From the NCBI RefSeq assembly GCF_031157375.1, contig NZ_JAVIFV010000004.1, forward strand, positions 186,001 to 250,000: a stretch of 64,000 nt of DNA, in the 5' to 3' direction. Position numbers and translations under genes: made by a program. The notes beneath the pieces were generated by a model. That model searched no databases, was not told the DNA's origin, and saw nothing but the letters and a program-made list of their open reading frames with translations. The stretch is from Sphingosinicella sp. LHD-64 (lineage in GTDB: Bacteria > Pseudomonadota > Alphaproteobacteria > Sphingomonadales > Sphingomonadaceae). Positions 25,154 to 63,750 of this stretch are shown in pieces. Position 1 is the first letter of the stretch. Each line of letters begins with the position of its first letter.

Positions 25154-25245
25154 CTCGCTCCCCACGCTCATTGCCCGACTCAGATGGGCAAAATTGCTTT
25201 GCTATCGAAGCTTTCCTAGCTTGCGTTCGGGGAATATGCAATATA

Positions 25246-29310: not shown

Positions 29311-29416
29311 ATTGACAGCTCATTGTTTTTTCAATGCTCTGACGCTCGCATGAAACGGGCGGGTGGTTGCCGAATGGCGGCGCGAAATCTTGCCCGAAGC
29401 AAAAGGGGGAGAAACC

Positions 29417-43653: not shown

Positions 43654-46431
43654 TCAGAAGCTCGCGCGCACGCCGAAGGTGAAATAACGCCCGACAAAGT
43701 CGTGATAGGGCGAGGCCGCGCCAAGCTCCGGGGCGCGATCGAACAGGTTCTGGACGTTGCCGTAGATGGTGATGCGCTGGTCACCGCCGAGGCCGACATA
43801 GCCGCGCAGCCCCAGATCGACATAGATGCGGCTGTCGACGTGCAGGTCGGGAGCCTGGTTGGGAAGGACGCTGGCCGGCGCGAACCCGCCGCCGCCGACA
43901 TAGCGGGTGCGGATGTCGGCGCCGATGCTGCTGCTTTCGTAGGTCGCGGAGACAAGACCGCGCCATCTCGGCACCAGGAAAACCGCTTGCGAGCCCAGAT
44001 AGCCGGCGCCGTCGATCGCGACGACGCCATTGTCCACGATGAGCTTGTCGACATAGTTGACCAGCGCGCGGACGGACAATTGTCCCCCGAGCCCGATCGC
44101 GTCCAGTCGGGTTCGATACGACGCTTCGAAATCCACGCCGTTGTTGCGGAAGTCAGCGATGTTGATGAACGAGGCGTTGATCGAGCTGATGGCGCCGTTG
44201 CCGTCTCGGGTGATCTGGGAGCAAGCGCCCTGATTGCTCTGCAGATAGCAGCCGTTGACGATCTGCTGGGCGGTGAGCGTGGTGATCACGTCCCGGATCT
44301 TGATGTCGTAATAGTCGACCGAGAGGTTGAGCCCGGGCAGGGCCCTGGGCGAGATCACCACGCCGAAGGTCAGCGTGTCGGCAATCTCGGGCCGCAGATC
44401 GGGATTGCCGCCCTGATACAGGATCACCTGGGTGGAGGGATTGCCGGGACGGCCGAGATCGTTGACCGGACCGAAGATGGCCGCACGCTGGCTGAACAGC
44501 TCGGTCAGGGATGCGGCGCGGATATCGCGTGACCGGGTCGCGCGCAGCTTGAGGCCGTCGACGATGTCCCAGATTCCGCCGATCTTCCATGACCAGATCG
44601 CTCCGCTGGTGCTGTAGTCGGAGACACGGACGGCGCCGTTGAGGTTCAGTTCGCGGATGGCGGGAAGATCGGCCAGGACCGGGATGTTCACTTCCGCAAA
44701 GGCTTCCGTGACGCTGTTGCCGGTTTTCGGGATGTTGGTGCCATTGATCATGGAAAAGCGGCGGGCGAGCGCGTTCTCGTCGAACAGGTTCTCGTACGCT
44801 TCCTCGCGATATTCGACGCCCGCGGCGACGGAGACCGGCCTGCCCCAGAACGACAGCGGCTCGCCGCTGATGCTGGCGCCCGCATTGTCGAGCCAGGTGT
44901 TGATCACGGAATTCCAGTCCGCGGTCGCATAGGCGATGGCGGCTGGATCGGCATTGCCGCTGCCGAACAGATTGAGGGGACGGCACGGCGTGGTCGGATC
45001 GGTCAGCGCCACGCGGCAGACGATCGAACCGTTCGGCGCACGAACCGCATCGATCGCATTCGCGAAATTGGTGCGCAGCGTGATATTCCTGAGGAACTGG
45101 TCCTGTTTCTGCTCGCCATGTGCGTAATAGGCGTTGTAGCGCCACCGGCCACCACCGAAGGAGCCGTCGAGGCCGATCGTGCCCTGCACAGCCTCGCGGT
45201 CATAGTCGTAGCGGGCGAGCGCCATGTCACTGAGCGCCCGGCCCATCACGAAGGAAGGCTCTCCCGCTGCGGCGAGCCGGTCCCTGATCGATTGTGACAG
45301 AAAGGGGTTGGTGGCGGAGAGGGTGATCTGGCCGACCCCGAGATCCGGCCAGTAGAAGCGGCTGTCCGAAACCCGGTTGTAGCTTCCTTCCACCCAGAAG
45401 GTGAGATTGTCGGCCACGTCGAAACTGGCGCGGGCGAAGCCGTTCAATCGACTGATCGGTGCCGAAACCGAGCGATATTTGTTGGTGGTGAAGCCATCGC
45501 CGCCGATCATCGAAGTCGGCGCGCCGGGTCGGCGGATGCCATACCGGAACGGACTCAAACTGCCGTCGGCGTTGAAGGTCTGCCCGGCGAGCACGCCGGA
45601 GTTGATCAGGCCGCCTTCGCTGCGGTTGGATTCCCGAATGCCGAGCGTCGGATAGAGCCGGCCGTCCTCGCCGGGGAAGAAGCCGGCGTCACCGACCAGC
45701 GGTCGTGCCGAGGCGGGAGCGATGCCTTCGTCCTCGAGATAATCGGCGCCGATGACGACATGACCGCGCCCATCGGCGAAGGACAGTCCCATCGACCCTT
45801 CGAGCAGGTACTGCGCCCGATCGTCGCGGCTGGAAATGCCGGTTTGCGCGCCGAGCTTGAACCCTTCGAACCGGTCATCGAGGATGATGTTGACGACCCC
45901 GGCGACCGCGCCCGACCCATAGGCGGCGGAGGCGCCGCCGGTCACGACGTCGACCCGCCTCACCATCGTATAGGGAACGGTCTGGAGGTCGTTCGAGCTG
46001 ATGTGCCGACGATTGTTGATCAGCACGAGCGTACGGGCAATGCCGAGGCCGCGAAGGTCCGCCGGCGCCTGGCCCGAAGTTGTCGTGGTGTTGGTCTGTT
46101 GCGAACCCTGCGTCTGGCGGAATTGCGGGAGGTCGGCGAGCGCCGCGCCAATGTCGGTGCTGCCCGCCTGACGCAATTCGGCCACTCCCACGACCGTGGT
46201 CGGAGTCGGTGCGCCGAAGCCGGCGGTATTGATGCGCGAACCGGTGATGACGATTTCAGTGCCGGGTTCTTCCACCCGGCTGTCGACGGCCCTGTCCGTC
46301 GCCTCGGGCGTGGCCGTGGTCGAGCGATCCTGAGCGGCGGCGGGAAACGCGAAGGCCAGCGCGGTGGCAAGAGTCGCGAGGCTGCTGCTCCGGACCAGAG
46401 TCGCGCCGTGAAAATTCGCGATTCGCACCAT
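43654..46431 (-). CDS. TonB-dependent receptor, large
   Basis: A 925-residue receptor. The signal peptide ends FAFPAAAQ; TEIVITGSRINTAGFGAPTP is the TonB-box region; the plug has ADLRGLGIARTLVLINNRRH and RVDVVTGGASAAYGSGAVAG; it ends YFTFGVRASF. It is a paralogue of the receptor at 29.4 kb. GGGAGGAAA lies before the ATG. The operon receptor, amidohydrolase, PLP enzyme suggests import of an N-acyl amino acid or peptide that is processed in the periplasm. Confidence 0.92.
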   Translation of the reverse strand: MVRIANFHGATLVRSSSLATLATALAFAFPAAAQDRSTTATPEATDRAVDSRVEEPGTEIVITGSRINTAGFGAPTPTTVVGVAELRQAGSTDIGAALADLPQFRQTQGSQQTNTTTTSGQAPADLRGLGIARTLVLINNRRHISSNDLQTVPYTMVRRVDVVTGGASAAYGSGAVAGVVNIILDDRFEGFKLGAQTGISSRDDRAQYLLEGSMGLSFADGRGHVVIGADYLEDEGIAPASARPLVGDAGFFPGEDGRLYPTLGIRESNRSEGGLINSGVLAGQTFNADGSLSPFRYGIRRPGAPTSMIGGDGFTTNKYRSVSAPISRLNGFARASFDVADNLTFWVEGSYNRVSDSRFYWPDLGVGQITLSATNPFLSQSIRDRLAAAGEPSFVMGRALSDMALARYDYDREAVQGTIGLDGSFGGGRWRYNAYYAHGEQKQDQFLRNITLRTNFANAIDAVRAPNGSIVCRVALTDPTTPCRPLNLFGSGNADPAAIAYATADWNSVINTWLDNAGASISGEPLSFWGRPVSVAAGVEYREEAYENLFDENALARRFSMINGTNIPKTGNSVTEAFAEVNIPVLADLPAIRELNLNGAVRVSDYSTSGAIWSWKIGGIWDIVDGLKLRATRSRDIRAASLTELFSQRAAIFGPVNDLGRPGNPSTQVILYQGGNPDLRPEIADTLTFGVVISPRALPGLNLSVDYYDIKIRDVITTLTAQQIVNGCYLQSNQGACSQITRDGNGAISSINASFINIADFRNNGVDFEASYRTRLDAIGLGGQLSVRALVNYVDKLIVDNGVVAIDGAGYLGSQAVFLVPRWRGLVSATYESSSIGADIRTRYVGGGGFAPASVLPNQAPDLHVDSRIYVDLGLRGYVGLGGDQRITIYGNVQNLFDRAPELGAASPYHDFVGRYFTFGVRASF

Positions 46432-46772
46432 ATATTTCCTCCCTTGGCTCGACAGACGAGGTTGATTTCCTTGTCATTTTCGTAGCGTCGACACACCGCA
46501 CGCTGGCGTTCCGTCTCGGCTTTTTTGCAGATTAGCAACAGATTTCCAATTCGTAAACTGTCTAGCAGTCGAGCGGCTAGGGAGTGGAGCCTGGATGGGA
46601 GAGGGGTTTTCGCAGATATCGCGATAAAATGCGTAAAATCAGTCTATTGTCTGAAATTTCGTTCGGAGGGCGAATTCGCGCTATTGCCAAATCAGTTTCT
46701 GTATGCGCAAATTGTGAAATGGTCGCGAGGCGGCCGCGCTTCCGCGCGGATCGACAAGGGAAAGCGAGAGCG
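46432..46772. other. Divergent promoter region of receptor and serine hydrolase
   Basis: About 340 bases without a gene between divergent starts. It is more A+T rich than its surroundings and contains TATCGCGATA (perfect 10-bp palindrome, 46617) and GAAATTTC (46653). GAAATTTC also lies just before the XRE-cupin gene at 33011, so joint control by that regulator is possible. Confidence 0.5.
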
Positions 46773-47954
46773 ATGAAGAGGGGGCTATTGGGTTTCGCAT
46801 TGTTGCTGGGGGCCGGCTTCGCAGTGCCAGTCGCCGCCGCTCCGGCGCCCGGCGCTGCGGCTCAGGCTCCGGCACTATCTCCGGCAGCCGTGGCTGCGAT
46901 CGACGCGATCGCCAGGGAGACGGTCCAAACCGGGCAAACAGCGGGGCTGGTGGTCGGCGTCTCCGTCAACGGGTCGCCGGTCTTCGTTCGCAGCTATGGA
47001 GTTGCCGACATCGAGCACAATGTGCCGGTGACCGACCGCAGCGTGTTCAGGATCGGTTCCCTCACCAAGCAGTTCACCGCCGCGGCCATTCTCCTGCTGG
47101 CGGAAGACGGCCGGCTGTCGCTCGATGACCCCCTCTCGACATTCTTTCCCGATTTCCCGCGTGGGAGCGAGGTTACGGTGCGCGAGTTGCTCAGGCATAC
47201 CGGGGGCATCCGCAGTTATACCGAAGTCAGCGATTATTTTCCGACTCTTGGCCGCCAGAATATGACGACTGAGCAGATGGTTTCCTACATCTCCAATCTC
47301 GACAACCTGTACGATTTTGAGCCTGGAACCAGCTATCATTACAGCAATTCGGGCTATTATCTGCTCGGTGCGATCATCGAAAAGGTGTCCGGGCAGTCTT
47401 ATCCCGCGTTCCTGAAGGCGCGCATCTTCGATCCGCTCGGGCTCCGCAACACGGCGGTCGATGACACCGTCGAGATCGTTGCCGACCGCGCCAACGGTTA
47501 TGCCCCGGTCAGGGACCGGCCGGGCGCGTTTACGAATGCATCCTATATTGCAATGAGCGCCGCCGGAGCGGCGGGGGCGATGCGCTCGACCGCCGAAGAC
47601 CTTCTGACCTGGGCGAACGCCCTGCTCGGCGGCAGGGTGCTGAGACCGGAAAGCCTGGCGGCGATGGTTGAGCCGGGCCGCCTCAGGAGCGGACAATTGT
47701 CCAGCACCGCAATGGCAGCCGGCCCTTCCTGGCAAACCGTATTCGACTACGGCTTTGGTCTCGCGCTACGGCGGGACGAGGCAGGCCGACAGATGATCGG
47801 CCACAATGGCGCGATCAACGGCTTTCATACCTACTCGCAGAATTTTCCGGACCAGCATGTCTCGATCGTGCTGCTCGCGAATGCGGACGGCATATCGGCC
47901 TTTGAGGCCGGACCAAGGGTCGCCAGGGCTTTCTTCGACAACCAGGGCAGGTGA
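46773..47954 (+). CDS. Exported serine hydrolase, beta-lactamase/S12 peptidase family
   Basis: A 393-residue protein with a signal peptide (FALLLGAGFAVPVAAAPA). The nucleophile motif SxxK is SLTK in FRIGSLTKQFTAAAI; the second motif YxN is YSN in YHYSNSGYYLLGAI; HNG in GHNGAINGFHTYSQNFP is the third. Family members include class C beta-lactamases, D,D-peptidases, esterases and D-aminopeptidases. Beside the D-amino-acid genes a peptidase acting on D-residues is attractive, but motifs alone do not decide. It diverges from the receptor operon. Confidence 0.86.
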   Translation: MKRGLLGFALLLGAGFAVPVAAAPAPGAAAQAPALSPAAVAAIDAIARETVQTGQTAGLVVGVSVNGSPVFVRSYGVADIEHNVPVTDRSVFRIGSLTKQFTAAAILLLAEDGRLSLDDPLSTFFPDFPRGSEVTVRELLRHTGGIRSYTEVSDYFPTLGRQNMTTEQMVSYISNLDNLYDFEPGTSYHYSNSGYYLLGAIIEKVSGQSYPAFLKARIFDPLGLRNTAVDDTVEIVADRANGYAPVRDRPGAFTNASYIAMSAAGAAGAMRSTAEDLLTWANALLGGRVLRPESLAAMVEPGRLRSGQLSSTAMAAGPSWQTVFDYGFGLALRRDEAGRQMIGHNGAINGFHTYSQNFPDQHVSIVLLANADGISAFEAGPRVARAFFDNQGR

Positions 47955-50659: not shown

Positions 50660-51301
50660 ATGGCCTGCTCCAATTGCGCATCCGGAACGCCCGCCGGCGC
50701 CCCCGACCGGGGCTGGCGCCGGGCGCTATGGATCGCGCTCGCCATCAATGCCCTGATGTTCGGCGTGGAACTCTATGCCGGCGCCGCTGCGGACAGCCGC
50801 GCGCTCCAGGCCGACGCGCTCGACTTCTTCGGCGATGCCGCCAATTATGCCATTTCCCTTGCGGTGGCCGGCATGGCGCTCGCATGGCGCGCACGCGCCG
50901 CGTTGCTCAAGGGCGCGACGCTCGTCTTGCTGGGCGTCTATGTCCTCCTCGGCGCAACCGGGGCCGCGCTGCACGGCGCGTCTCCCGAGCCGCAGGTGAT
51001 GGGCCTCATCGGCCTCCTGGCCCTGGCGGCCAATATCGGCGTCGCGATCATGCTCTATCGGTTCCGCGGCGGCGACGCGAACCGGCGCTCCGTCTGGATC
51101 TGCTCGCGCAATGACGCGATCGGCAACCTGGCCGTGGTCGCCGCGGCCGCCGGTGTCTTCGGCACCGGAACGGCATGGCCCGACCTCGTCGTCGCGACGA
51201 TCCTTGCCGCCTTGGCCCTATCTGGCGGATGGCAGATCATCGTGCAGGCGCGCGGCGAACTGCGCCGGTCGCGCCCGGAACAACTCCAACCAGCAGAGTG
51301 A
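50660..51301 (+). CDS. Cation diffusion facilitator, short form
   Basis: A 213-residue inner-membrane protein of the CDF superfamily without the usual cytoplasmic C-terminal domain. ALWIALAINALMFGVELYAG is helix 1; SRALQADALDFFGDAANYAIS is helix 2 with the D-x3-D metal site; WICSRNDAIGNLAVVAAAAG is helix 5 with N-D-x2-G-N. It would export a divalent cation using the proton gradient. MerR control and the receptor three bases downstream make one metal operon. Confidence 0.86.
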   Translation: MACSNCASGTPAGAPDRGWRRALWIALAINALMFGVELYAGAAADSRALQADALDFFGDAANYAISLAVAGMALAWRARAALLKGATLVLLGVYVLLGATGAALHGASPEPQVMGLIGLLALAANIGVAIMLYRFRGGDANRRSVWICSRNDAIGNLAVVAAAAGVFGTGTAWPDLVVATILAALALSGGWQIIVQARGELRRSRPEQLQPAE

Positions 51302-51303
51302 GC

Positions 51304-53292
51304 ATGTTTTCCAGAAAGGTTTCCCTGGCCGCTGCGCCAGCCGCCACCGTGCTGTTTTTCTTGCCAGGGGCGGCATGGGCGCAAGAGCCTCGCGAGGCGC
51401 CGTCCGCAGCCCAGGCGGAAGATGAGGATGACGAGGAGGTCGTGATCCAGGCGACGCGTTCGCGCCGCCGCGTGCAGGACGAGCCGATCCGTGTCGACGT
51501 CCTCAACCGCGAGGAGATCGAAGAGAAGCTGCTGATGCGGCCCGGCAACATCGCGATGATGCTGAGCGAGACGGGCGGCGTGCGGGTCCAGGTGACCTCG
51601 CCGGCGCTGGGCGCGTCCAATGTGCGCGTGCAGGGCATGAACGGCCGCTACACCCAATTGCTCGCCGACGGCCTGCCGCTCTATGGCGGCCAGGCGTCGT
51701 CGCTCGGCCTCCTGCAGATCCCGCCGACCGACCTTGGCCAGGTCGAGGTCATCAAGGGCGCGGCCTCGGCGCTCTATGGCCCTTCGGCGCTCGGCGGCGT
51801 CATCAATCTGGTCTCGCGGCGACCGGGCGACGCGGCGGAAGCCGAAGCTTTGCTCAACGTCACCAGCCGCGACGGCCAGGACCTCACCGCCTACGCCGCA
51901 TCGCCGCTCGGTGGGGGCTGGAGCGCCTCCCTGACCGGCGGCCTGCACCGTCAGGGCCGGCAGGACATCGACGATGACGGCTGGATCGATCTTCCCGGCT
52001 ATGACCGCTGGACCGCCCGGCCGCGCCTGTTCTGGGAAGGCGCCGACGGGGCGTCGATCTTCGCGACGGTCGGCGCGATGGGCGAGGATCGCGTCGGCGG
52101 AACCCTGCCCGGCCGGACCACGCCCGATGGTCGGCCCTTCCCCCAGACCCAGGACACGGATCGCCTCGACGCCGGTCTGGTCGCGGAGTTGCCGCTGGAG
52201 GGGATCGGCACCGCGCAAATTCGGGCGTCGGGGATGCGGCAGGATCACCGCCATGTCTTCGGCGACGTGACCGAGGATGACCGGCATGACACGCTCTTCG
52301 CCGAGCTGTCGCTGGCCGGGGAGGCGGGCGGCACGTCGTGGGTCGCCGGGGCAGCCTATCAAGCGGACGGCTATCGGTCCGAGACTTTCCCCGCGTTCGA
52401 CTATGATTTCACCGTGCCGGGGTTCTTCGTTCAGGCCGAGCATGAGCTGAACGATCACCTGACCTTGGCCGGCAGCGCCCGGATCGACGCCCACAGCGAA
52501 TATGGCACCAAGCTCAGTCCGCGCCTGTCGATGCTCTACCGGCCCGGCTTCTGGACGGTGCGGGCCTCGGTCGGCCGCGGTTTCTACGCGCCGACCCCAT
52601 TCGTCGACGAGACCGAGGCGGCCGGCCTCTCACGGCTGGAGCCGCTGAGCGGCCTGCGGGCGGAAACGGCGGAAAGCGCCTCGCTCGACATCGGCTATGC
52701 GCGTGGGGGCATCGAGGCGAACGTCACCCTGTTCGGATCGGACATGCGCAACACGACCCGGCTTGATGTGATCGATCCATCGCCGGAAACGGGGCGGGTG
52801 CGGCTGGTCAGCGTCGCGGAGACAACGCGCATTCGTGGCGCCGAGCTGCTGCTGCGCTATCGCTGGCAGGCGTTCACCGTCACCGGCAGCTACGTGTTCG
52901 TCGATTCTTCGGAACCGGACCCGGACGGCACCGGCCGCCGGCAGGTGCCGCTGACCCCGCGCCACACCGCCGGCATGGTCGCCATGTGGGAACGGCACGG
53001 GGTCGGCCGGATCGGTTTCGAGGCTTATTATACCGGCCGGCAGTCGCTGGAGGACAATCCGTATCGCGCGACCGGCCGGCCCTATGTCGAGCTCGGCCTG
53101 ATGGGCGAGATCGTGCTCGGCAGCATCCGCCTGTTCGTGAATGCCGAGAATCTGCTGAACGTCCGGCAGACGAAATATGACCCGCTGCTGCGGCTGACGC
53201 GAGCGCCGGACGGCCGCTGGACGGTCGACGCCTGGGCGCCGACCGACGGATTCACCGTGAACGGCGGCATCCGCCTGACCCTTGGTGGTTGA
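51304..53292 (+). CDS. TonB-dependent receptor, metal operon
   Basis: A 662-residue receptor. The signal peptide ends PGAAWAQ, followed by an unusual acidic stretch AEDEDDEEVVIQATRSRRRV at the TonB-box region. The plug has RVQGMNGRYTQLLADGLPLY and VEVIKGAASALYGPSALGGV. The barrel ends NGGIRLTLGG, lacking a terminal aromatic. It starts three bases after the transporter stop, so it is co-expressed under MerR. A receptor co-regulated with an exporter is odd for simple uptake; it may bring in a metal complex or act in outer-membrane efflux. Confidence 0.88.
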   Translation: MFSRKVSLAAAPAATVLFFLPGAAWAQEPREAPSAAQAEDEDDEEVVIQATRSRRRVQDEPIRVDVLNREEIEEKLLMRPGNIAMMLSETGGVRVQVTSPALGASNVRVQGMNGRYTQLLADGLPLYGGQASSLGLLQIPPTDLGQVEVIKGAASALYGPSALGGVINLVSRRPGDAAEAEALLNVTSRDGQDLTAYAASPLGGGWSASLTGGLHRQGRQDIDDDGWIDLPGYDRWTARPRLFWEGADGASIFATVGAMGEDRVGGTLPGRTTPDGRPFPQTQDTDRLDAGLVAELPLEGIGTAQIRASGMRQDHRHVFGDVTEDDRHDTLFAELSLAGEAGGTSWVAGAAYQADGYRSETFPAFDYDFTVPGFFVQAEHELNDHLTLAGSARIDAHSEYGTKLSPRLSMLYRPGFWTVRASVGRGFYAPTPFVDETEAAGLSRLEPLSGLRAETAESASLDIGYARGGIEANVTLFGSDMRNTTRLDVIDPSPETGRVRLVSVAETTRIRGAELLLRYRWQAFTVTGSYVFVDSSEPDPDGTGRRQVPLTPRHTAGMVAMWERHGVGRIGFEAYYTGRQSLEDNPYRATGRPYVELGLMGEIVLGSIRLFVNAENLLNVRQTKYDPLLRLTRAPDGRWTVDAWAPTDGFTVNGGIRLTLGG

Positions 53293-55454: not shown

Positions 55455-56366
55455 TCATCGGCGAACGCGCCGCCCGGCACGCTGCCGTTCGACATGGTCC
55501 TCGACCAGCGCCTGCTGGTCGGGCCGCAGCGCATCGATCGCGGCCAGATGGTCGGGCACCGGCCCGCGCAGCAGCACCGAGGGGCACTGGCCCTCATAAT
55601 TGCCGAGATTGGGGCGATGCTGCCGATAGCCGACGAGCGCCGCCAGCTCCGGCGCAAAGCGGCGCGCGACCGGCGGCGGATAGGCGAGCCACTGGTTCTC
55701 GTAGGGCTTGAGCCAGCCCAGGCAGTAGCTGACGATCATGCCGCGCCGGATGCCGGTGGTCCGGTTGCCACCGGCGCCGTGCAGGGTCGAGCCGAGGAAG
55801 AGGAGCGCCGCGCCGGGATCGAGCTCGACCGCGACCGGCGCTGTCGAAGGCATGGGGTCGAGGGCCCGCCGGCCATGGCTGCGCGGCCAGACCAGGGTCG
55901 CGCCGTTCGCGCGGCGATAGGTCGTGAAGGGCCACATCACGTTGACCAGATATTCGATCTCGCCCTGCGGCCCGCGCCACATGTCCTGGTCGCGGTGCGG
56001 GAGTTGCGGCAGAGCGCCGGGATGAAGCGCGATGGCCTGGGTGAGGTTGAGCTGGAGCGTGTCGCACCAGGGCGACAGGATTCGCGCGGCGATCGCCTGG
56101 ACGAGCGGATGGGCGACGAACGCGGCGGCGTGGCGCGAGCGCGCCAGCAGTCGCCCGAACCGCTTGGTCCGCTCGCCATAGAAGCCGCCTTGGGCGAAGG
56201 GGGTCTTCGCGAAATCCTCCGCAAGGTCCGCATCGAGCGCCGCGACCGCCGCGCGCGCGACCAAATCGGGGAGGACGCAATAGCCCTCCTCGACCAGGCG
56301 GGCGGTCCACAGGTCGATCGCGTCGGACCCGGTCTCGGGCGTGCGCACGTCGGTCGCTGCGGTCAT
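55455..56366 (-). CDS. Phytanoyl-CoA dioxygenase (PhyH) family protein
   Basis: A 303-residue Fe(II)/2-oxoglutarate dioxygenase. LPHRDQDMWRG carries the H-x-D iron ligands; the distal His is in LGSTLHGAGGNRTTG and the 2-oxoglutarate Arg in GIRRGMIVSYCLGW. It starts on the last base of the luxI stop (TGATG), so it is translationally coupled to the signal synthase. The same luxI-phyH pairing recurs in sphingomonads as I recall. It may hydroxylate the signal, its acyl precursor, or another quorum-regulated product. Confidence 0.87.
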   Translation of the reverse strand: MTAATDVRTPETGSDAIDLWTARLVEEGYCVLPDLVARAAVAALDADLAEDFAKTPFAQGGFYGERTKRFGRLLARSRHAAAFVAHPLVQAIAARILSPWCDTLQLNLTQAIALHPGALPQLPHRDQDMWRGPQGEIEYLVNVMWPFTTYRRANGATLVWPRSHGRRALDPMPSTAPVAVELDPGAALLFLGSTLHGAGGNRTTGIRRGMIVSYCLGWLKPYENQWLAYPPPVARRFAPELAALVGYRQHRPNLGNYEGQCPSVLLRGPVPDHLAAIDALRPDQQALVEDHVERQRAGRRVRR

Positions 56367-56974
56367 CACGCCGCCATCCGTCGGGCCGCATCCGGCGCGC
56401 CGATGCCGGCGCGCGCGAGCCGCGCGGGCGTGTCGGGCGTGATGTCGATCCGGAGCGCCCCCAGCATCGTGCCGTCGACCGGCCGCGGCAGGCCGAGCGG
56501 CCGGCAGCGCCAGCCGAAGGCGAGGATCTGCTGCAGCCAGCCCATTTCGGCGACGCCGGTATAAGCGGTGACCTGATTGGCGAGCGCGTCGTCGACCAGC
56601 GCGGTGACCAGGGCGTCGCGCACCTCGCGGCGCCGGGTCGCGCCCAGGCTGCGGCCCAGGCAGAAGCGGCTGATCTCGTAAATGTCCTCGCCCCGCGGCG
56701 GCGCGTCCTCGCACAGCTCGGCGAACAAGGTGTCGAGGATGTGCGGGCGCATCGTCGGCAGCAGCCGCGCCGATCCCAGATGCCGATGCGCGGCATCGGC
56801 GACGATCAGATAGCGGGCATGCGCATCGTCGAACTGGTCGATCTCGTAGCGCCCGGCGAGCACGGGCAGATCCCATCCGAGCAGGTCGACGAACACCTGC
56901 TTGCGCGCCGCGAACATCGCCCGCAGGACCGGTGCCGCGGCGGCGCGCGAACCGGACGGGACGGTGAGGATCAT
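56366..56974 (-). CDS. luxI: Acyl-homoserine-lactone synthase (LuxI family)
   Basis: A 202-residue autoinducer synthase using SAM and an acyl-ACP. All invariant positions are present: Arg24 and Phe28 (ARKQVF), Trp34 (LGWD), Asp46 and Asp49 (EIDQFDD), Arg70 (GSARLLPT), Glu100, Ser102 and Arg103 (YEISRFCL). The acyl chain length cannot be read. It follows luxR in the same direction with an 80-base gap that contains a perfect 16-bp dyad, the likely LuxR-binding site. Confidence 0.95.
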   Translation of the reverse strand: MILTVPSGSRAAAAPVLRAMFAARKQVFVDLLGWDLPVLAGRYEIDQFDDAHARYLIVADAAHRHLGSARLLPTMRPHILDTLFAELCEDAPPRGEDIYEISRFCLGRSLGATRRREVRDALVTALVDDALANQVTAYTGVAEMGWLQQILAFGWRCRPLGLPRPVDGTMLGALRIDITPDTPARLARAGIGAPDAARRMAA

Positions 56975-57054: not shown

Positions 57055-57804
57055 TCAGCGTCGCAGCACATCGACGAAGGTGAGGGTTCCGTCGAACAGG
57101 GCATGCACCAGGAGCTGCGTTCGCTTGCCGACGCCGTAGCGCTCACGGGCCTGCTTGAGATGCTGGATCACCGTGTCATGGCTGATGCCGAGAATCCGCG
57201 CGATCTCCCAGTCGGACTTGCCGCGCGCCGCCCAATAGAGGCAGTCGCGCTGCCGGTCGGTGAGCTTGGGCCGCTGGTCCGGCCCAAGCTCGCGCAGGCC
57301 CCACAGCCGCCGCGCGCCTTCGAAGGCGATCGCGCCGACGAGCTGGGCGAGCGGCAGCCACTCCTCGCGCACCGGCCGGCCGTCGGCGGTCGCGAACGAG
57401 CAGGAGCCCGCCGATTCGCCGGGGACATGGGCGGGAACGGTGAAACCGTCGCCGATGCCGGCACGCCGCGCGCCATGCAGGATATCGCGATCGCGGGTGG
57501 TCAAATCGAGCATGGCGGCGAGCCGCGTCCAGCGAAAGCCGACGCTGGTCAGATGGCTGGCGCGATGGACCGGATCGCACGGCCCGAGCCGGTGCTCGTC
57601 GAAATAGTCGACCCAGCCCAGCGGGTAGTTGTGCAATCGCACCGCGGGCTGCGGCGCGCGCGGCAGGTCGACATGATGGGTGAGCGCGAAGAAGCGAAAG
57701 TCCATCGCGCGCGCCGCCGCATCGAGCAGGGCGGCGAGCTCGTCCGGGCTCGAGGCCGCATCCACCTGTTGCGCGAACTCTTCTGCAATCTGGACCAGGC
57801 CCAT
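57055..57804 (-). CDS. luxR: LuxR-family quorum-sensing regulator
   Basis: A 249-residue regulator with an N-terminal autoinducer-binding domain (about residues 15-160; Trp and Asp of the pocket in NYPLGWVDYFDEHRLGPCDPV) and a C-terminal LuxR HTH (KLTDRQRDCLYWAARGKSDW, then ILGISHDTVIQHLKQARER). It lies head-to-head with the FseA-like gene and just upstream of luxI. By analogy with TraR of ICEMlSymR7A it should activate both luxI and the fseA-like gene. Confidence 0.93.
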   Translation of the reverse strand: MGLVQIAEEFAQQVDAASSPDELAALLDAAARAMDFRFFALTHHVDLPRAPQPAVRLHNYPLGWVDYFDEHRLGPCDPVHRASHLTSVGFRWTRLAAMLDLTTRDRDILHGARRAGIGDGFTVPAHVPGESAGSCSFATADGRPVREEWLPLAQLVGAIAFEGARRLWGLRELGPDQRPKLTDRQRDCLYWAARGKSDWEIARILGISHDTVIQHLKQARERYGVGKRTQLLVHALFDGTLTFVDVLRR

Positions 57805-58010: not shown

Positions 58011-58812
58011 ATGAGAGCGGGTAGGGACGCGCGCCCGGACTGGCGTCTCGACGCTGCGTACCGGTCCCTTCTCGGCATCGACCGCGCGGGCCTCGCTTGG
58101 GAATGGCTGCGCCGCGATCCTCGCTATGTCGCACTCTGGCGGGACCCTGGCGGGGAGGTTCGCACAAGGCATGGCATGGCCGTCGTCCCCGCCAGCGCAT
58201 GCGCCTCGGCCTGGGGGCTCGCCTTTCGCCGAGCGGCCGGATCGTCCCGCCCCCGAGGCGCGTCTCCTGTGGCGTGCCGAGTTCGACCGCGGCGTCCTGG
58301 CGGTCCGCGCCGCGCCGGCCGGTCGGAACGATTCCGGCGGCTTCGAGCTGGCCCGGCTCCAGCGCTGGGCGACCCTCGCCGTCGGCGAGGACGGACGCGA
58401 GCATCTCGTCCTCTCCAATGGCTGGCGCCGTATCCGCCTCGACGTGATCGAAGGCCGGCTGCTCGGTTCCGGCCGCGTGCGGCTTCACTATGAGCTGTCG
58501 GGTGTCTCGGGCCTCGAACAACGCCTGTTGACCCTGCGCCGGCTGCTGGCGCTGTGGCAGCGCGGCCGGTTCGTGCACGCCCTGTTTCCGCCGCTGCGCG
58601 GCCTGCCGCGCCGGCTCGAGGCGCTGCGCGTCGCCGACGCGGTCGCGGACGGAGCCTCCTATCGCGAGATCGCCACCGCCTTGTTCGGCGAACCGGTCGT
58701 GCGCGCCCAATGGAACGGGCCGTCGGACTTCCTGTTGTCGCGCGTGCGCCGCCGCGCCGCCGAAGCGCGGCGCATGGCCGCCGGCGGCTACCAGGCCTTG
58801 TTGCGCGCCTGA
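58011..58812 (+). CDS. fseA: FseA-like excision activator made by +1 frameshift (DUF6499-DUF2285)
   Basis: Two overlapping frames encode one protein. Frame 1 (58011-58226) gives 72 residues of a DUF6499 domain (PDWRLDAAYRSLLGIDRAGL, WEWLRRDPRYVALWRDPGG, ending AWGLAF). Frame 2, one base on, gives the DUF2285 domain (AERPDRPAPEARLLWRAEFD, then RRLLALWQRGRFVHALFPP) to 58812, 266 residues in all. The junction is UUU-C at 58224-58227. In Mesorhizobium ICEMlSymR7A, msi172 and msi171 are fused to FseA by +1 slippage of tRNA-Phe from UUU to UUC, and FseA activates rdfS for excision. Unshifted, frame 1 runs to a stop at 58493 with no domain. Confidence 0.85.
58221..58230 (+). other. Programmed +1 ribosomal frameshift site
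   Basis: GCC-TTT-CGC-C. In frame 1 it reads Ala-Phe-Arg; slipping one base forward on TTT to TTC gives Ala-Phe-Ala-Glu and opens the DUF2285 frame. The slip codon, direction and tRNA match the published FseA mechanism in Mesorhizobium. The conserved peptide WGLAF then AERP spans the junction without gap. Confidence 0.8.
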
Positions 58813-59097: not shown

Positions 59098-59517
59098 ATG
59101 ATCCTTCTGACCCAAGCCCTGCGCGCGCGGCTGCGCGCCCATGCCGACGCGGCGCGGCGGCCCGGCCATGATCCGGCGCCGGTGGTCAAATTCTTCAACC
59201 CCGTCGGGGCCGCCACCTGGCTCGCGACCGAGCTGGACGCCGATGGCGACACCCTGTTCGGGCTGGCCGATCTCGGGTTCGGCTGTCCTGAACTCGGCAG
59301 CTTCTCGCTCGCCGAGATCGCCGGCCTGCGCCTCGCTTTCGGCCTTCGCATCGAGCGCGACCTGCATTTCACCGGCCTGTTCCCGCTCTCGGTCTATGCC
59401 GAAGCCGCACGCCGCGCCGGCCGCATCGTCGAGGAGACGAGCGCGCTGCGCGCGGCCGCCGCCTCCCGCCACCGCCATTTCGGACTTCCGCCGACCCCCG
59501 ATGGGGGCGCCGGATGA
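59098..59517 (+). CDS. DUF2958 protein, ICE backbone
   Basis: A 139-residue DUF2958 protein: DPAPVVKFFNPVGAATWLAT, DGDTLFGLADLGFGCPELGS and IERDLHFTGLFPLSVYAEAA are the family segments. Its function is unknown; it is a regular neighbour of ParB-like, DUF736 and TraF genes in alpha- and betaproteobacterial conjugative elements. The start at 59098 is set by the family N-terminus MILLTQALRARL; earlier starts lie in spacer DNA. Confidence 0.88.
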   Translation: MILLTQALRARLRAHADAARRPGHDPAPVVKFFNPVGAATWLATELDADGDTLFGLADLGFGCPELGSFSLAEIAGLRLAFGLRIERDLHFTGLFPLSVYAEAARRAGRIVEETSALRAAAASRHRHFGLPPTPDGGAG

Positions 59518-59606: not shown

Positions 59607-61424
59607 ATGCAACTCGGCCATATCGAACCCGCCAAGCTGGTTCCGTCCCGGCTCAACATGCGGCACGGCCGCAAGCCCCCGGACCTCGCCAATATCCTGC
59701 CGTCCGTGCGCAAGCGCGGCGTCATCGTCCCGCTGATCGTCCGCCCCGTGGCGGACGGCGAACTCGATCGCTTCGAGATCGTCGCGGGGCTTCGCCGCTG
59801 GCACGCCAACGGCGTCGCGCTCGCCGAAGGGATCGACCACGGCCCGCTGCCGGTGGCGTTCCTCGAGGCCGGCGACGACGCCGATGCGATCGAAGCCTCG
59901 CTGATCGAGAACAGCGCCCGGCTCGATCCCGACGAGGTCACCCGATGGGAGAGCTTCGTCCGGCTGGTGAAGGAAGGGCGCTCGCTCGAGGACATTGCGG
60001 CGACTTTCGGCATCGCCGAACTTGGCGTGAAGCGCATCCTCGCGCTCGGCAACCTGCTGCCGCGCGTGCGCGACCTCTACCGCAAAAGCGAGATCGACGC
60101 CGCGACCGTCCGCCACCTGACGCTCGCCAGCAAGAGCCAGCAAAGGGCATGGCTCGCGCTGCGCGACGATCCCGACGCCTATCTGCCGACCGGGCATCAG
60201 CTCAAGGCGTGGCTGTTCGGCGGCCAGTCGATTCCCGGGCGCCATGCCCTGTTCGACCTCGACAGCTATGCCGGCGCGCTCATCGCCGACCTGTTCGGCG
60301 AGGACCGCTATTTCGCCGACGCCGACCAGTTCTGGGCGGCGCAGGAAGAGGTGATCGCGGCCCGGCGCGCCGACTATCTGGCGGCCGGATGGAGCGACGT
60401 GACCGTCGTTCCGGCGGGCCAGCATTTCGAGACATGGGCCCATGAAAAGGCGCCCAAGCGCAAGGGCGGGCGCGTCTATATCGACGTGTGCGCCAGCGGC
60501 GAGGTCGTCTTCCACGAAGGCTATCTGACCCGCAAGGAGGCGCAGCGGCTGCGTGGCGCCGAGACGGGCGAGGCGGCTTCGGCCGGGTTCCGGCCGGCCC
60601 GTCCCGAGGTCACGAGCACGCTCCAGACCTATATCGACCTCCATCGCCATGCCGCCGCGCGCGCCGCGCTCACCGGCCATCCCGATGTCGCGCTCAGGTT
60701 GCTGGTGGCCCATGCAATCACCGGCTCGTATCTGTGGAACGTGAAGGCGGAGCCGCAGACCTGCCGGAACGAGGCGGCCCGCGAGAGCGTCGAAACCTGC
60801 AAGGCCGAGGCCGAGTTCGATCAGGTCCGCCGCGCCGTGCTGGACCTGCTCGGCTTCTCGCCCGAGGAACCGACTGTGGTCGGCGGCAATGGCGATCCTT
60901 ATGGTCTGGTCGGCCTGTTCCTGCGCCTGCTCGACCTGCCCGACCGCGCGGTCATGGACGTGATCGCGGTGGTGATGGGCGAGACGCTGGCGAGCGGCAG
61001 CGCCGCCGTCGAGGCGGTCGGAAGCCAGATCGGCCTCGACATGGCGCGCTACTGGCAGGCCGACGACGCCCTTTTCGCGCTCATCCGCGACAAGGAGGTG
61101 CTCACCCGCATCGTCGCGGAGGTGGCGGGAGAATCGGTCGCGGCCGCCAATGCCGGCGAGACGGGCAAGACCTTGAAAGGCATCGTGCGCGACCATCTCG
61201 GTGGCGCGAACGGCCGGCGCAGGGTCGAGTCGTGGGTGCCCAGATGGATGGCGTTCCCGCCCGCCGCCTATACGGTGCGCGGCGGCGTCGGCACGGTCGA
61301 TGCGGCCGCCCTGCTGGCGGCGGCGCGCACCGCCGGTGACGAGCCCGCGCCGGCCGGCCCCGGCGTCGCGCTGGCCTTGCCGGTGCCGCAGCCCGAGACG
61401 GCGCCGCAGCCGCTCGCCGCCTGA
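59607..61424 (+). CDS. ParB/RepB/Spo0J-like nuclease-fold protein, ICE backbone
   Basis: A 605-residue protein. The ParB N-terminal domain is at about residues 5-110 (PAKLVPSRLNMRHGRKPPDL, FEIVAGLRRWHAN, ASLIENSARLDPDEVTRWES), followed by a KorB/ParB-like HTH (EDIAATFGIAELGVKRILAL). The long C-terminus is found in plasmid and ICE ParB-like proteins. The partition or DNA-processing role is not established, and no parA is adjacent. AAGGAG precedes ATG 59607. A 600-residue reading on the opposite strand is a high-GC shadow. Confidence 0.9.
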   Translation: MQLGHIEPAKLVPSRLNMRHGRKPPDLANILPSVRKRGVIVPLIVRPVADGELDRFEIVAGLRRWHANGVALAEGIDHGPLPVAFLEAGDDADAIEASLIENSARLDPDEVTRWESFVRLVKEGRSLEDIAATFGIAELGVKRILALGNLLPRVRDLYRKSEIDAATVRHLTLASKSQQRAWLALRDDPDAYLPTGHQLKAWLFGGQSIPGRHALFDLDSYAGALIADLFGEDRYFADADQFWAAQEEVIAARRADYLAAGWSDVTVVPAGQHFETWAHEKAPKRKGGRVYIDVCASGEVVFHEGYLTRKEAQRLRGAETGEAASAGFRPARPEVTSTLQTYIDLHRHAAARAALTGHPDVALRLLVAHAITGSYLWNVKAEPQTCRNEAARESVETCKAEAEFDQVRRAVLDLLGFSPEEPTVVGGNGDPYGLVGLFLRLLDLPDRAVMDVIAVVMGETLASGSAAVEAVGSQIGLDMARYWQADDALFALIRDKEVLTRIVAEVAGESVAAANAGETGKTLKGIVRDHLGGANGRRRVESWVPRWMAFPPAAYTVRGGVGTVDAAALLAAARTAGDEPAPAGPGVALALPVPQPETAPQPLAA

Positions 61425-61933
61425 GTCAAAGGGGAGGGGCGGCGCCGCGCGCCGCCCCGCCTTCGCTTCGGCAGGTTCCGGCCATGTGCACGTTCGCCCC
61501 CGGTTCGGGGCGGCGGCGGCCGTGGTCGCGACCCTTTTTCCGAAACCCTCTTCTCCGGACCCTCACGCCTCCCGGCAGGGACGCACCCCGCACGGGCGCG
61601 AATGGCGGGCGGCCCCGCACGGGGCGCCCGGCGCGGTGGGGCGTGACCGGGCCGATGCGCCATCTCCCGGCCGCAGGCGGCGACCAGACGGGCGGTGGGC
61701 CGGGACTTGGGCGGCCCGACGTCCCCCGCGAAACCATCGCGGCGGGACTGATTTCCCCGCCGGCCTGGCGCCGGCTCCTCGCGGCCGCTGTCGCTGCAAA
61801 TCAGTCCCGCCGCTCCGGTCCTGCGCTGGCGCTTCGGCCCCATGGGTTCGCGAAGGACGCGCTTCCGGCCGCCCCTGGCGTCGGCCCGTCGCCCGCAAAT
61901 GGTCGCCGGCGACTTTCGACAAGGAGATGCACC
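61425..61933. other. Structured gene-free interval before DUF736
   Basis: About 510 bases with no gene. It contains a long stem-loop with perfect 16-bp arms (61739-61754 and 61798-61813) and a repeat-like tract CTCCGGTCCTGCGCTGGCGC following it, shared in form with 2.66 kb and 58.97 kb. AAGGAGATG precedes the DUF736 start. Candidate roles are a transfer-origin-like element, a transcription-control structure or a mobile intergenic repeat. Confidence 0.6.
61739..61813. repeat. Long inverted repeat, 16-bp perfect arms
   Basis: GCGGCGGGACTGATTT and AAATCAGTCCCGCCGC pair perfectly across a 43-base loop, which itself holds GCCGGC-CTGGC-GCCGGC. Such a large nested structure is not expected by chance even in GC-rich DNA because the arms include an A/T-rich end. 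It lies about 120 bases before the DUF736 gene. Confidence 0.7.
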
Positions 61934-62254
61934 ATGTCTGCAATCGGTCACGTCACCCGCGAGGGCGCAGGCTTCAAGGGCCAGCTTCGGACCCTGACGA
62001 TCCGCGCCCCGATCGAGATCGTCCCCAACGGCCGCAAGGCGAGCGAGAACCAGCCCGACTACCGGGTGTTCTCGGACGGCGCCGAGGTCGGTGCGGGCTG
62101 GATCCGCCGCAGCGAAACCTCGGGCAACGACTATGTGTCGCTGAGCCTCGCCGCGCCCGAATTCGGGCCGCGCCGGCTCTACGCCAATCTCGGCCGCGCC
62201 GCCGGCCAGGACGATGACGACGCTTTCGCCATCATCTGGAACCCGGCCGACTGA
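61934..62254 (+). CDS. DUF736 protein, ICE backbone
   Basis: A 106-residue single-domain DUF736 protein: MSAIGHVTREGAGFKGQLRT, TIRAPIEIVPNGRKASENQP and PRRLYANLGRAAGQDDDDAF. The family is nearly confined to plasmids and conjugative elements of proteobacteria and has no known function. AAGGAG is seven bases before the ATG. It separates the ParB-like gene from the HTH-TraF transfer genes. Confidence 0.92.
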   Translation: MSAIGHVTREGAGFKGQLRTLTIRAPIEIVPNGRKASENQPDYRVFSDGAEVGAGWIRRSETSGNDYVSLSLAAPEFGPRRLYANLGRAAGQDDDDAFAIIWNPAD

Positions 62255-62403
62255 GCCGCCTCGCCCCGCGCCCGCCACCGGGCGCGGGGCCCTTTCCCCG
62301 TCGAAATCGCAGCCGGCGCGTTTCGACTCTGCCGCCCACGCCGCTCGCGGCCGATGATCCGGCGCACCGGGCCGCATGCCGCCGCCCGCGAAGGACAAGC
62401 ATC

Positions 62404-62634
62404 ATGGGCGACGAGGATATCGTGCGCGCGGCCCGCGCGCGGCACAGCCACCCGTTTCTCAACACCCGCCAGGCGGGCCATTATCTGGGCCTGTCGGTCA
62501 GGTTCCTGGAGCGCATGCGCAGCCGTGGCCAGGGCCCGGTCTTTCGCCGCCACGGCCGCTACGTCCTCTATCATATCGACGACCTCGACAGCTGGTCGCG
62601 CGCGACGGACGGCCCGCGGGTGCGCCATGACTGA
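62404..62634 (+). CDS. AlpA/RdfS-like helix-turn-helix protein (candidate excisionase)
   Basis: A 76-residue MerR-like winged helix of the HTH_17 excisionase group: HPFLNTRQAGHYLGLSVRFL, then RMRSRGQGPVFRRHGRYVLY and HIDDLDSWSR. In ICEMlSymR7A the excisionase RdfS is encoded just ahead of traF and is the target of FseA. The same position here, overlapping the traF start by eight bases, makes this the best candidate for that role. Many HTH_17 proteins are only regulators, so excisionase activity is inferred. Confidence 0.75.
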   Translation: MGDEDIVRAARARHSHPFLNTRQAGHYLGLSVRFLERMRSRGQGPVFRRHGRYVLYHIDDLDSWSRATDGPRVRHD

Positions 62635-63139
62635 GCGCGCCCGCAGGCTTTGCCAGATGGGCGCGGCCGGCCTTCTTGCGCTGGGCCTGGCGGCGACCAT
62701 CATGGCGCCACCACGGCCGCGGCTGGTGTGGAACGCCTCGCCCAGTGCTCCGATCGGTCTTTATGCCGTGGTCGAGGGCGCGCCGGCCGCCGGCGACATC
62801 GTGATTGCCTGGCCGCCCGCATCTGTTCGGCAGCTCGCCGCGCGGCGGCACTATCTGCCCGCCAACGTGCCGCTGGTGAAGCGCGTCGCCGCCGGGCCCG
62901 GCGACAGGCTTTGCGCGCTGGGCTCCGGCATCTTGGTCAACGGCCGCCGCGTCGCCCGGCGCCTGGCGCGGGACGGCGCCGGCCGGCCGATGCCATGGTG
63001 GCGCGGCTGCACGAGATTGCGCGCCGGCAGCTGGTTCCTGCTCGTGGCGGACAGCCCGGCCTCGTTCGACGGGCGCTATTTCGGGCCGACCGGCGGGCGC
63101 GACATGATCGGCAAGGCGAGGCTGCTATGGGCGCGCTGA
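62627..63139 (+). CDS. traF: TraF-like S26 signal peptidase (conjugative pilin maturation)
   Basis: A 170-residue membrane serine protease: one N-terminal helix (GAAGLLALGLAATIMA), the nucleophile Ser region WNASPSAPIGLYAV, and the catalytic Lys in VPLVKRVAAGPGD; FDGRYFGPTGGRDMIGKA is the C-terminal box. TraF of RP4-type systems trims and cyclises TrbC pilin. It overlaps the HTH gene before it and the transglycosylase after it, so all three are one transfer operon. Confidence 0.9.
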   Translation: MTERARRLCQMGAAGLLALGLAATIMAPPRPRLVWNASPSAPIGLYAVVEGAPAAGDIVIAWPPASVRQLAARRHYLPANVPLVKRVAAGPGDRLCALGSGILVNGRRVARRLARDGAGRPMPWWRGCTRLRAGSWFLLVADSPASFDGRYFGPTGGRDMIGKARLLWAR

Positions 63140-63750
63140 AGGCCGCCGGCACCGCGCTGGCGCTCCTCGCCGCGACGCCGGCGCTGGCCGATCCGGTCGC
63201 AACATGGCGGCCTTATATCGCCGAAGCCTCGGCCCGGTTCGCCCTTCCCGCGACCTGGATCGAGCGGGTGATGCTGGCCGAAAGCGGCGGGCGCACCCGC
63301 TTGCATGGCCGCCCGATCACCAGCCGCGCCGGCGCCATGGGGCTGATGCAGCTCATGCCGGGAACCTGGGAAGAGATACGTGTCCGGTACGGTCTGGGCG
63401 CCGATCCGCACGACCCGCGCGCCAATATCCTCGCCGGGACGGCCTATCTGAGGCTCATGTACGACCGCTTCGGCTATCCCGGCCTGTTCGCCGCCTACAA
63501 TGCCGGGCCGGGCCGTTATGCCGCGCACCTTGCCGGCGGCCGGCCGCTCCCGGGCGAGACACGTGCCTATCTGGCCGGCATGGTCGGGGCGACGACCTCG
63601 CCTGCGCAGGCCGGGATCGTGCCACCCGCACATCCGATTTTCTTCGCGCTGCGGCCGCGATCGCCCCCGGCGACCGCCGCTCCCGCCCGGATGATGGCCG
63701 CAGATATCTTCCTTATCTATCGAGGCGGGACGGCGGCGCCGTGGCCCTGA
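63127..63750 (+). CDS. Lytic transglycosylase, conjugation-associated
   Basis: A 207-residue exported lysozyme-like protein with signal peptide (ALALLAATPALAD). The catalytic Glu is in VMLAESGGRTR near residue 53, followed by SRAGAMGLMQLMPGTW and NILAGTAYLRLMYDRFG then FAAYNAGPGRY, the SLT motifs. It opens peptidoglycan for the mating channel. The start at 63127 overlaps the traF end by 13 bases. It corresponds in position to msi107 of ICEMlSymR7A as I recall that operon. Confidence 0.92.
   Translation: MGALKAAGTALALLAATPALADPVATWRPYIAEASARFALPATWIERVMLAESGGRTRLHGRPITSRAGAMGLMQLMPGTWEEIRVRYGLGADPHDPRANILAGTAYLRLMYDRFGYPGLFAAYNAGPGRYAAHLAGGRPLPGETRAYLAGMVGATTSPAQAGIVPPAHPIFFALRPRSPPATAAPARMMAADIFLIYRGGTAAPWP

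Follow-up and report, generated by a model that had tools for sequence, protein, structure and literature searches.

A predicted FseA-family excision activator gene with a conserved +1 frameshift site in a sphingomonad ICE

The window, by which is meant the whole 64,000-nucleotide stretch of DNA analysed (G000:C4:186001-250000, within an 8-contig genome of 3.89 Mb), very probably contains the fseA gene of a sphingomonad ICE of ~131 kb, the two frames of which would be joined by a ribosomal +1 slip that gates excision. Comparison with relatives shows a single predicted protein to be encoded in two frames, the split and the putative slip site both being kept; we infer that the full-length product would arise through a ribosomal +1 shift, and comparison gives good support for its being a probable excision activator of the FseA family, with a conserved +1 site, encoded by a sphingomonad ICE. 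The +1 gate itself is already known from rhizobial symbiosis islands and is common in such elements: FseA is reported to be made via a low-frequency +1 frameshift, about 61% of 4709 FseA homologues are reported to need a +1 site, and the frameshift is recorded in alpha-, beta- and gamma-proteobacteria (PMC10359603); the excision circuit of Mesorhizobium and its mechanism are described in PMC10359603, PMC11963761 and PMC5882170. Among the papers listed by literature searches that took in few subscription papers, none dealt with FseA in sphingomonads. Through the present gene, this translational gating of conjugative transfer would extend to a sphingomonad ICE of mapped limits that carries its own LuxI and LuxR and has no detectable antiactivator.

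The two-frame gene and its predicted product

The features of the gene are as follows.

58011-58493, plus strand: zero frame, from ATG at 58011 to the stop at 58491-58493, 160 aa; DUF6499 (PF20109)
58015-58812, plus strand: +1 frame, open throughout, stop at 58810-58812
+1 frame 3′ of the slip site, plus strand: middle region and DUF2285 (PF10074) of an FseA-like protein
58212-58217, plus strand: SD-like TGGGGG (codons W-G), 6 nt 5′ of the slip codon
58224-58227, plus strand: putative slip site TTT_C, at which P-site tRNA-Phe would move from UUU to UUC (+1)

TTT (58224-58226) lies in frame as codon 72 of the zero frame (surrounding letters TGG GGG CTC GCC TTT CGC), and the unshifted product would run on for 88 residues past it. 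When TTT is read and translation resumes with GCC at 58228, the result is instead a single protein of 266 aa, with the junction ...ASAWGLAF-AERPDRP.... A second in-frame TTTC also occurs. The preliminary description had placed a DUF6499 frame and a DUF2285 frame one base apart with a gapless junction at TTT-C, and had called the product FseA-like. Both claims held, as the joined protein matched PF20109 (DUF6499 / Trans_reg_dom) over residues 10-72 (47.9 bits, curated cut-off 23.8) and then PF10074 (DUF2285 / RovC_DNA-bd) over residues 167-265 (57.1 bits, curated cut-off 26.4), while each half searched singly matched its own Pfam model only. The N-terminal part includes, as LAWEWLRRD, the DUF6499 helix of AWEFLRRN type.

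The closest described counterpart is FseA (msi172-msi171) of ICEMlSymR7A from Mesorhizobium japonicum/loti R7A, which has the same DUF6499-DUF2285 order and +1 offset and, as here, a UUU slip codon, a W codon four codons before it and an SD-like UGGGGG (PMC10359603, PMC5009743). The W codon is reported as conserved at that place, a nascent-peptide effect of WG has been suggested and UUU_Y is described as shift-prone (PMC5009743), and UGGGGG has been suggested to stall ribosomes (PMC10359603). The R7A element likewise has an rdfS-traF operon as target and carries quorum-sensing genes (PMC11963761, PMC5882170), but there the gene belongs to a traI2-msi172-msi171 operon accompanied by qseM-qseC (PMC5882170), whereas here luxR-luxI is divergent from fseA; also unlike R7A, no QseM was found in the own genome, and the attachment site is tRNA-Arg(TCT). 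A more distant likeness is RovC of Yersinia (PDB 6xz5), the only match under 0.001 among the two returned at E up to 1, which is related in its C-terminal part (residues 203-260, E 7.4e-05) but distant in sequence, and which is a type VI secretion system activator, with another target than FseA (PMC10359603). As to mechanism, prfB (release factor 2) combines, as here, an internal SD-like stimulator with a +1 slip in the P site (PMC5009743), but it shifts at a UGA stop, whereas here there is no conserved stop after the slip codon.

Split and slip site among relatives

Two partly overlapping sets of relatives were compared. For the first, the joined protein was searched against 298 genomes of the same family, sampled from a larger group, with mostly no more than eight candidates scored per genome; matches were found in 70/298 genomes and 38/96 genera. 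This yielded 108 loci, own copy included, of which eight lacked the domain pair, as judged by profiles started from the halves of the window gene, and were dropped. Among the 100 loci with a DUF6499-DUF2285 pair, 74 were +1 split, 25 were in a single frame and one (L026, offset 2 with a second break, and excluded from counts) was +2. The slip codon was TTT in 73/74 split loci, window included, and the following base was C in all 74; the one exception, L091, also +1 split, reads AGT at the slip codon and may be a broken gene or one with a different shift site.

The second set, consisting of named genomes and limited to the best 80 of 329 relatives, comprised 57 +1 split genes, 21 fused genes and two offset by 2. 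Outside its 56 readable split sites stood L160 (motif not read) and the two loci offset by 2 (L202 and L208). TTT was present at 55/56 of these sites, L218 having TTT one codon later, and C came next at 51/56; four split loci (L153, L154, L155 and L177) read UUU_U for UUU_C. Split genes among these best 80 occurred in Sphingomonas, Sphingobium and Novosphingobium and, at greater distance, in Roseicyclus, Cognatishimia and Brucella pseudogrignonensis. Nine Sphingomonas loci of this set (L152-L155, L157-L160 and L212) had F (eight loci) or Y (L160) for W, three of the nine reading UUU_U, and GGG was still the next codon after F in all eight W-substituted loci with codons read.

A single indel error would produce just such a one-base offset, and broken copies of the gene do exist: L026 is offset by 2 and has TTC at the slip place. 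(L202 of the second set, from Hankyongella ginsenosidimutans, is the same fseA locus and likewise shows TTC at the slip place, followed by a further frame break.) In the window gene, however, the same offset and slip site recur in many species, including Sphingobium sp. SYK-6, which has a complete genome (L161; the same record is L008 in the first set). Against L008, differences at codon positions 1, 2 and 3 numbered 22, 20 and 39 over the 69 codons 5′ of the slip, read in the zero frame, and 46, 46 and 109 over the 194 codons 3′ of it, read in the +1 frame. The third-position excess in the +1 part also held against six other relatives, and that in the N-terminal part was weaker against some (31, 27 and 30 against L014, for example). 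Third-position excess in both frames, together with the conserved split, makes a strong case against an assembly or sequencing error or a decayed pseudogene, an explanation to which we give almost no credence. The earlier assertion that the match to FseA is too specific for an assembly error is thus borne out by the family pairs (74/100 +1 split, TTT in 73/74, C in 74/74). The conservation of TTT-C that it had proposed to look for is present in the window's own clade as well as in the 73/74 split loci; and where close relatives fused normally and lacking a conserved slip site would have told against it, the nearest relative, L008, is split and keeps the site.

Genes of this kind are reported to be easily misannotated (PMC10359603), and both plasmid-collection records with a homologue annotate just a DUF2285 protein at the gene.

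The SD-like element and frame-joined homologues

The state of the frames was mapped on a quick maximum-likelihood tree of 98 rows, from which junction columns were omitted and L074 left off as too short. Nine changes between split and fused were needed, at least seven of them forced by well-supported branches, the direction of these changes being inferred since the root is a midpoint root. The window pairs with L008 (support 99) within a clade of ten rows, nine split and one fused (support 94, under the 95 mark); in the sole fused member, L009, the window's GCCTTTC reads GCTTTC and its GGG reads CGG. With 25/100 homologues free of the frameshift, the shift is dispensable for the protein. Three fused sphingomonad homologues, L009, L020 and L022, have the same two domains as the window protein and, as in the window, keep luxR/luxI and rdfS-traF-slt nearby (L117, L125 and L126), but unlike the window gene the fused homologues have no frameshift and mostly lack UGGGGG. 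Fused relatives, which on this tree require several separate changes and mostly lack UGGGGG, constitute a set against which one could test what the gate is for and what the SD-like element does.

TGGGGG stood 5′ of the slip codon in 58/74 split but 2/25 fused loci of the first set (Fisher p 3.8e-10, uncorrected), and in 41/56 split versus 5/21 fused loci among the best 80 of 329 relatives, three of the latter 21 (L211, L219 and L224) being counted although their motif was not readable. Over seven independent pairs on supported branches, TGGGGG went with the split in a mean of 5.3, with the opposite in 0.0 and was tied in 1.7 (median sign-test p 0.0625). A tie between TGGGGG and the split state is therefore suggestive, not proven. 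The predicted duplex with the anti-SD averaged -8.3 kcal/mol in split genes, -4.0 in fused genes and -1.7 at randomly chosen positions of these genes, the value for the window's TGGGGG being -8.4 kcal/mol. Between the SD-like element and the slip codon there are 6 nt, compared with 3 nt in prfB, so that a stimulating role is not assured. A stop-driven mechanism like that of prfB was rejected, since among 75 unfused loci the zero frame continues past the slip codon for anything from 1 to 211 residues. A downstream stimulatory RNA structure was likewise considered and rejected (mean z -0.14 over the 75 nt after the slip, n=74, with 5/74 below -2; window z 0.09).

Codon choice at the junction was far from that in the remainder of the same genes: the Gly codon before the slip was GGG in 58/73 cases versus 231/1325 elsewhere, and the Phe codon at the slip site was TTT in 73/73 versus 142/481 elsewhere. 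Were DUF6499 and DUF2285 made independently, the latter from an internal start, and paired non-covalently, there would be no reason for this synonymous choice of TTT and GGG. The window does offer two ATGs in the +1 frame 5′ of the slip site (58126 and 58171) from which such a second protein could begin. However, between the upstream stop and the slip site the +1 frame held no ATG in 39/74 split loci, and no ATG, GTG or TTG in 27/74, so that relatives do not consistently retain the possibility of an independent start 5′ of the junction; moreover, 25/100 homologues carry both domains in one chain. We consider two separate proteins very unlikely. Still less probability, and about as little as for an assembly error, attaches to a joining of the frames at the RNA level by polymerase slippage or editing. 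It would give an identical protein, but polymerases are not known to slip on runs as short as three T, and two features tied to the codon register, the in-frame TTT and the constant position of TGG GGG before it, suggest that the event takes place during decoding. The accounts of the family that we draw on also describe a ribosomal frameshift (PMC10359603, PMC5882170).

Neighbourhood, extent of the element and antiactivator search

Genes in the window run in the order GntR, PhyH, luxI, luxR (minus), then fseA, DUF2958, ParB, DUF736, rdfS-like, TraF-type and SLT, and are followed past its end by a gene for a DUF3363 protein, which by position is taken as the relaxase, and then by members of the TraG, T2SSE (TrbB-like), CagE_TrbE_VirB, TrbL, VirB8 and CagX families.

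55455-56366, minus strand: PhyH-family dioxygenase-like gene, adjoining luxI on the same strand
56366-56974, minus strand: LuxI-type AHL synthase
57055-57804, minus strand: LuxR-type regulator (Autoind_bind and GerE), divergent from fseA and its presumed activator
59098-59517, plus strand: DUF2958 protein
59607-61424, plus strand: ParB-N domain protein
61931-62254, plus strand: DUF736 protein
62300-62327, plus strand: putative FseA box GTCGAA-N16-TTCGAC, ending 76 nt before the rdfS start codon
62404-62634, plus strand: RdfS-like HTH_17 protein, 76 aa, the name rdfS being given from family and position
62624-63139, plus strand: TraF-type S26 peptidase (start approximate; match within 62354-63139)
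63130-63750, plus strand: SLT lytic transglycosylase, in the place of msi107, with equivalence by position only

LuxR, LuxI, HTH_17 protein and S26 peptidase were all matched, in agreement with the LuxR/LuxI and HTH-TraF neighbourhood named in the preliminary description, and the order HTH_17, S26 peptidase, SLT, DUF3363 protein is that of an FseA-type target operon; an organisation of rdfS, traF and rlxS is reported to stay conserved (PMC8627217). Since domain order, shift direction, slip codon, conservation in relatives and rdfS-traF target all agree, the proposal that the element uses the same translational gate as FseA appears sound. Among 20 relatives, the neighbourhood stretches of which spanned 8.0 to 16.8 kb, so that absence from them is no proof, luxR (detected by similarity to the window's LuxR) was present in 14/20, luxI in 12/20 and the rdfS-traF-slt trio in 11/20. 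The comparison shows the putative fseA to sit in a recurring module of predicted quorum-sensing, excision and conjugation genes. The PhyH-family gene beyond luxI might modify the AHL signal.

An alignment of 12 sequences between luxR and fseA revealed no clear dyad that could serve as a LuxR box. The FseA box is described as two inverted hexamers 15-16 bp apart (PMC10359603), and the putative box here has that geometry, with inverted hexamers 16 bp apart; geometry alone was compared with the published box, the letters coming from an alignment made here. GTCGAA-N16-TTCGAC had a single match in the window, with 0.01 expected. Across the genome the pattern matched in four places, versus two for a reversed control, which makes the box alone weak evidence outside its position. 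In 12 rdfS promoters, the box was exact in three (window included), had one mismatch in one, two in three and three to four in five.

The limits of the element are marked by a 45-bp direct repeat of 95.6% identity (C4:136874-136918 and C4:268032-268076). On the right, the repeat forms the 3′ portion of tRNA-Arg(TCT) (C4:268032-268108), and a gene for a tyrosine integrase (Arm-DNA-bind_3 and Phage_integrase) starts directly inside the left copy. Placement of repeats, tRNA and integrase delimits an element of about 131.2 kb with the window wholly inside.

C4:136874-268076 (window coordinates -49126 to 82076): ICE, att site tRNA-Arg(TCT)

Just inside each end sits a tandem GATTACGTGG pair, which does not recur elsewhere in the 240 kb examined and may represent arm-type integrase sites.

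Taken together, these features suggest a circuit in which LuxR and the LuxI signal would turn on transcription of fseA. Ribosomes would pause at UGGGGG, and in a fraction of them the P-site tRNA-Phe would slip from UUU to UUC and so enter the +1 frame, giving full-length FseA (DUF6499-DUF2285), while those that do not slip would make the 160-aa product with DUF6499 only. FseA would bind the inverted repeat at 62300-62327 and activate rdfS-traF-slt, RdfS and the integrase would excise the element from tRNA-Arg, and the conjugation genes would transfer the excised element. The frameshift would thereby act as a gate that keeps leaky transcription from setting off excision.

An antiactivator of QseM type was sought in two ways. 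PF10074 matched once in the own genome, at fseA itself, and a model built from seven short DUF2285 proteins that other clades encode close to fseA (R7A QseM not among them) found no QseM-like match in that genome. In a run over 14 genomes the same seven-row model was positive in seven, including its sources G065 and G257, and silent in G110, G171 and G280 from the window's clade and in G079, G199 and G186, which have a fused fseA. Three genomes of the window's clade did have QseM-like matches: in G011 and G057 the match lay no more than about 3 kb from a second fseA copy, and in G144 it lay elsewhere and held an internal stop. With no detectable QseM in the genome, the frameshift may be the only post-transcriptional brake, unless a very divergent or unrelated antiactivator escaped both searches. 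Short QseM-like DUF2285 genes do stand near fseA elsewhere (L073-L114, L057-L066 and others). They lie mostly directly upstream in one large group and downstream in another, while those of L097 and L112 are on the opposite strand.

Mutual exclusivity of QseM and luxR near fseA, suggested by the first set, where 0/100 loci had both, proved an artefact of short flanks. At L021 and L024, which have a QseM nearby, longer stretches (L132 and L135) held luxR about 2.3 kb upstream, and four loci among the best 80 of 329 relatives had both genes, one of them, L202, through a fragment of its own broken gene. The claim of exclusivity was dropped in view of L021, L024 and these second-set loci.

A tentative joint reading, to which we give rather less than an even chance, is that in this sphingomonad ICE lineage, there being no QseM, the shift would be the only post-transcriptional brake on excision and UGGGGG a stimulator acting at the mRNA level (SD-type) rather than through the nascent peptide; UGGGGG would then be lost once lineages hard-wire the frames, and GGG would stay where W is replaced by F. 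If this were so, the homologues would amount to a natural experiment on the purpose of the gate. Published accounts of FseA, in the parts drawn upon, mention neither a setting without a QseM nor the rarity of the SD-like element among fused genes.

Elsewhere in the window there are genes for four TonB-dependent receptors (22958-25171, 29363-32278, 43654-46431 and 51175-53292), between which lie an amidohydrolase, an FAD oxidoreductase and a PF00144 gene (46584-47954; the Pfam name is Beta-lactamase, for a broad serine hydrolase family). This group of genes has the look of cargo that the ICE carries for catabolism or uptake.
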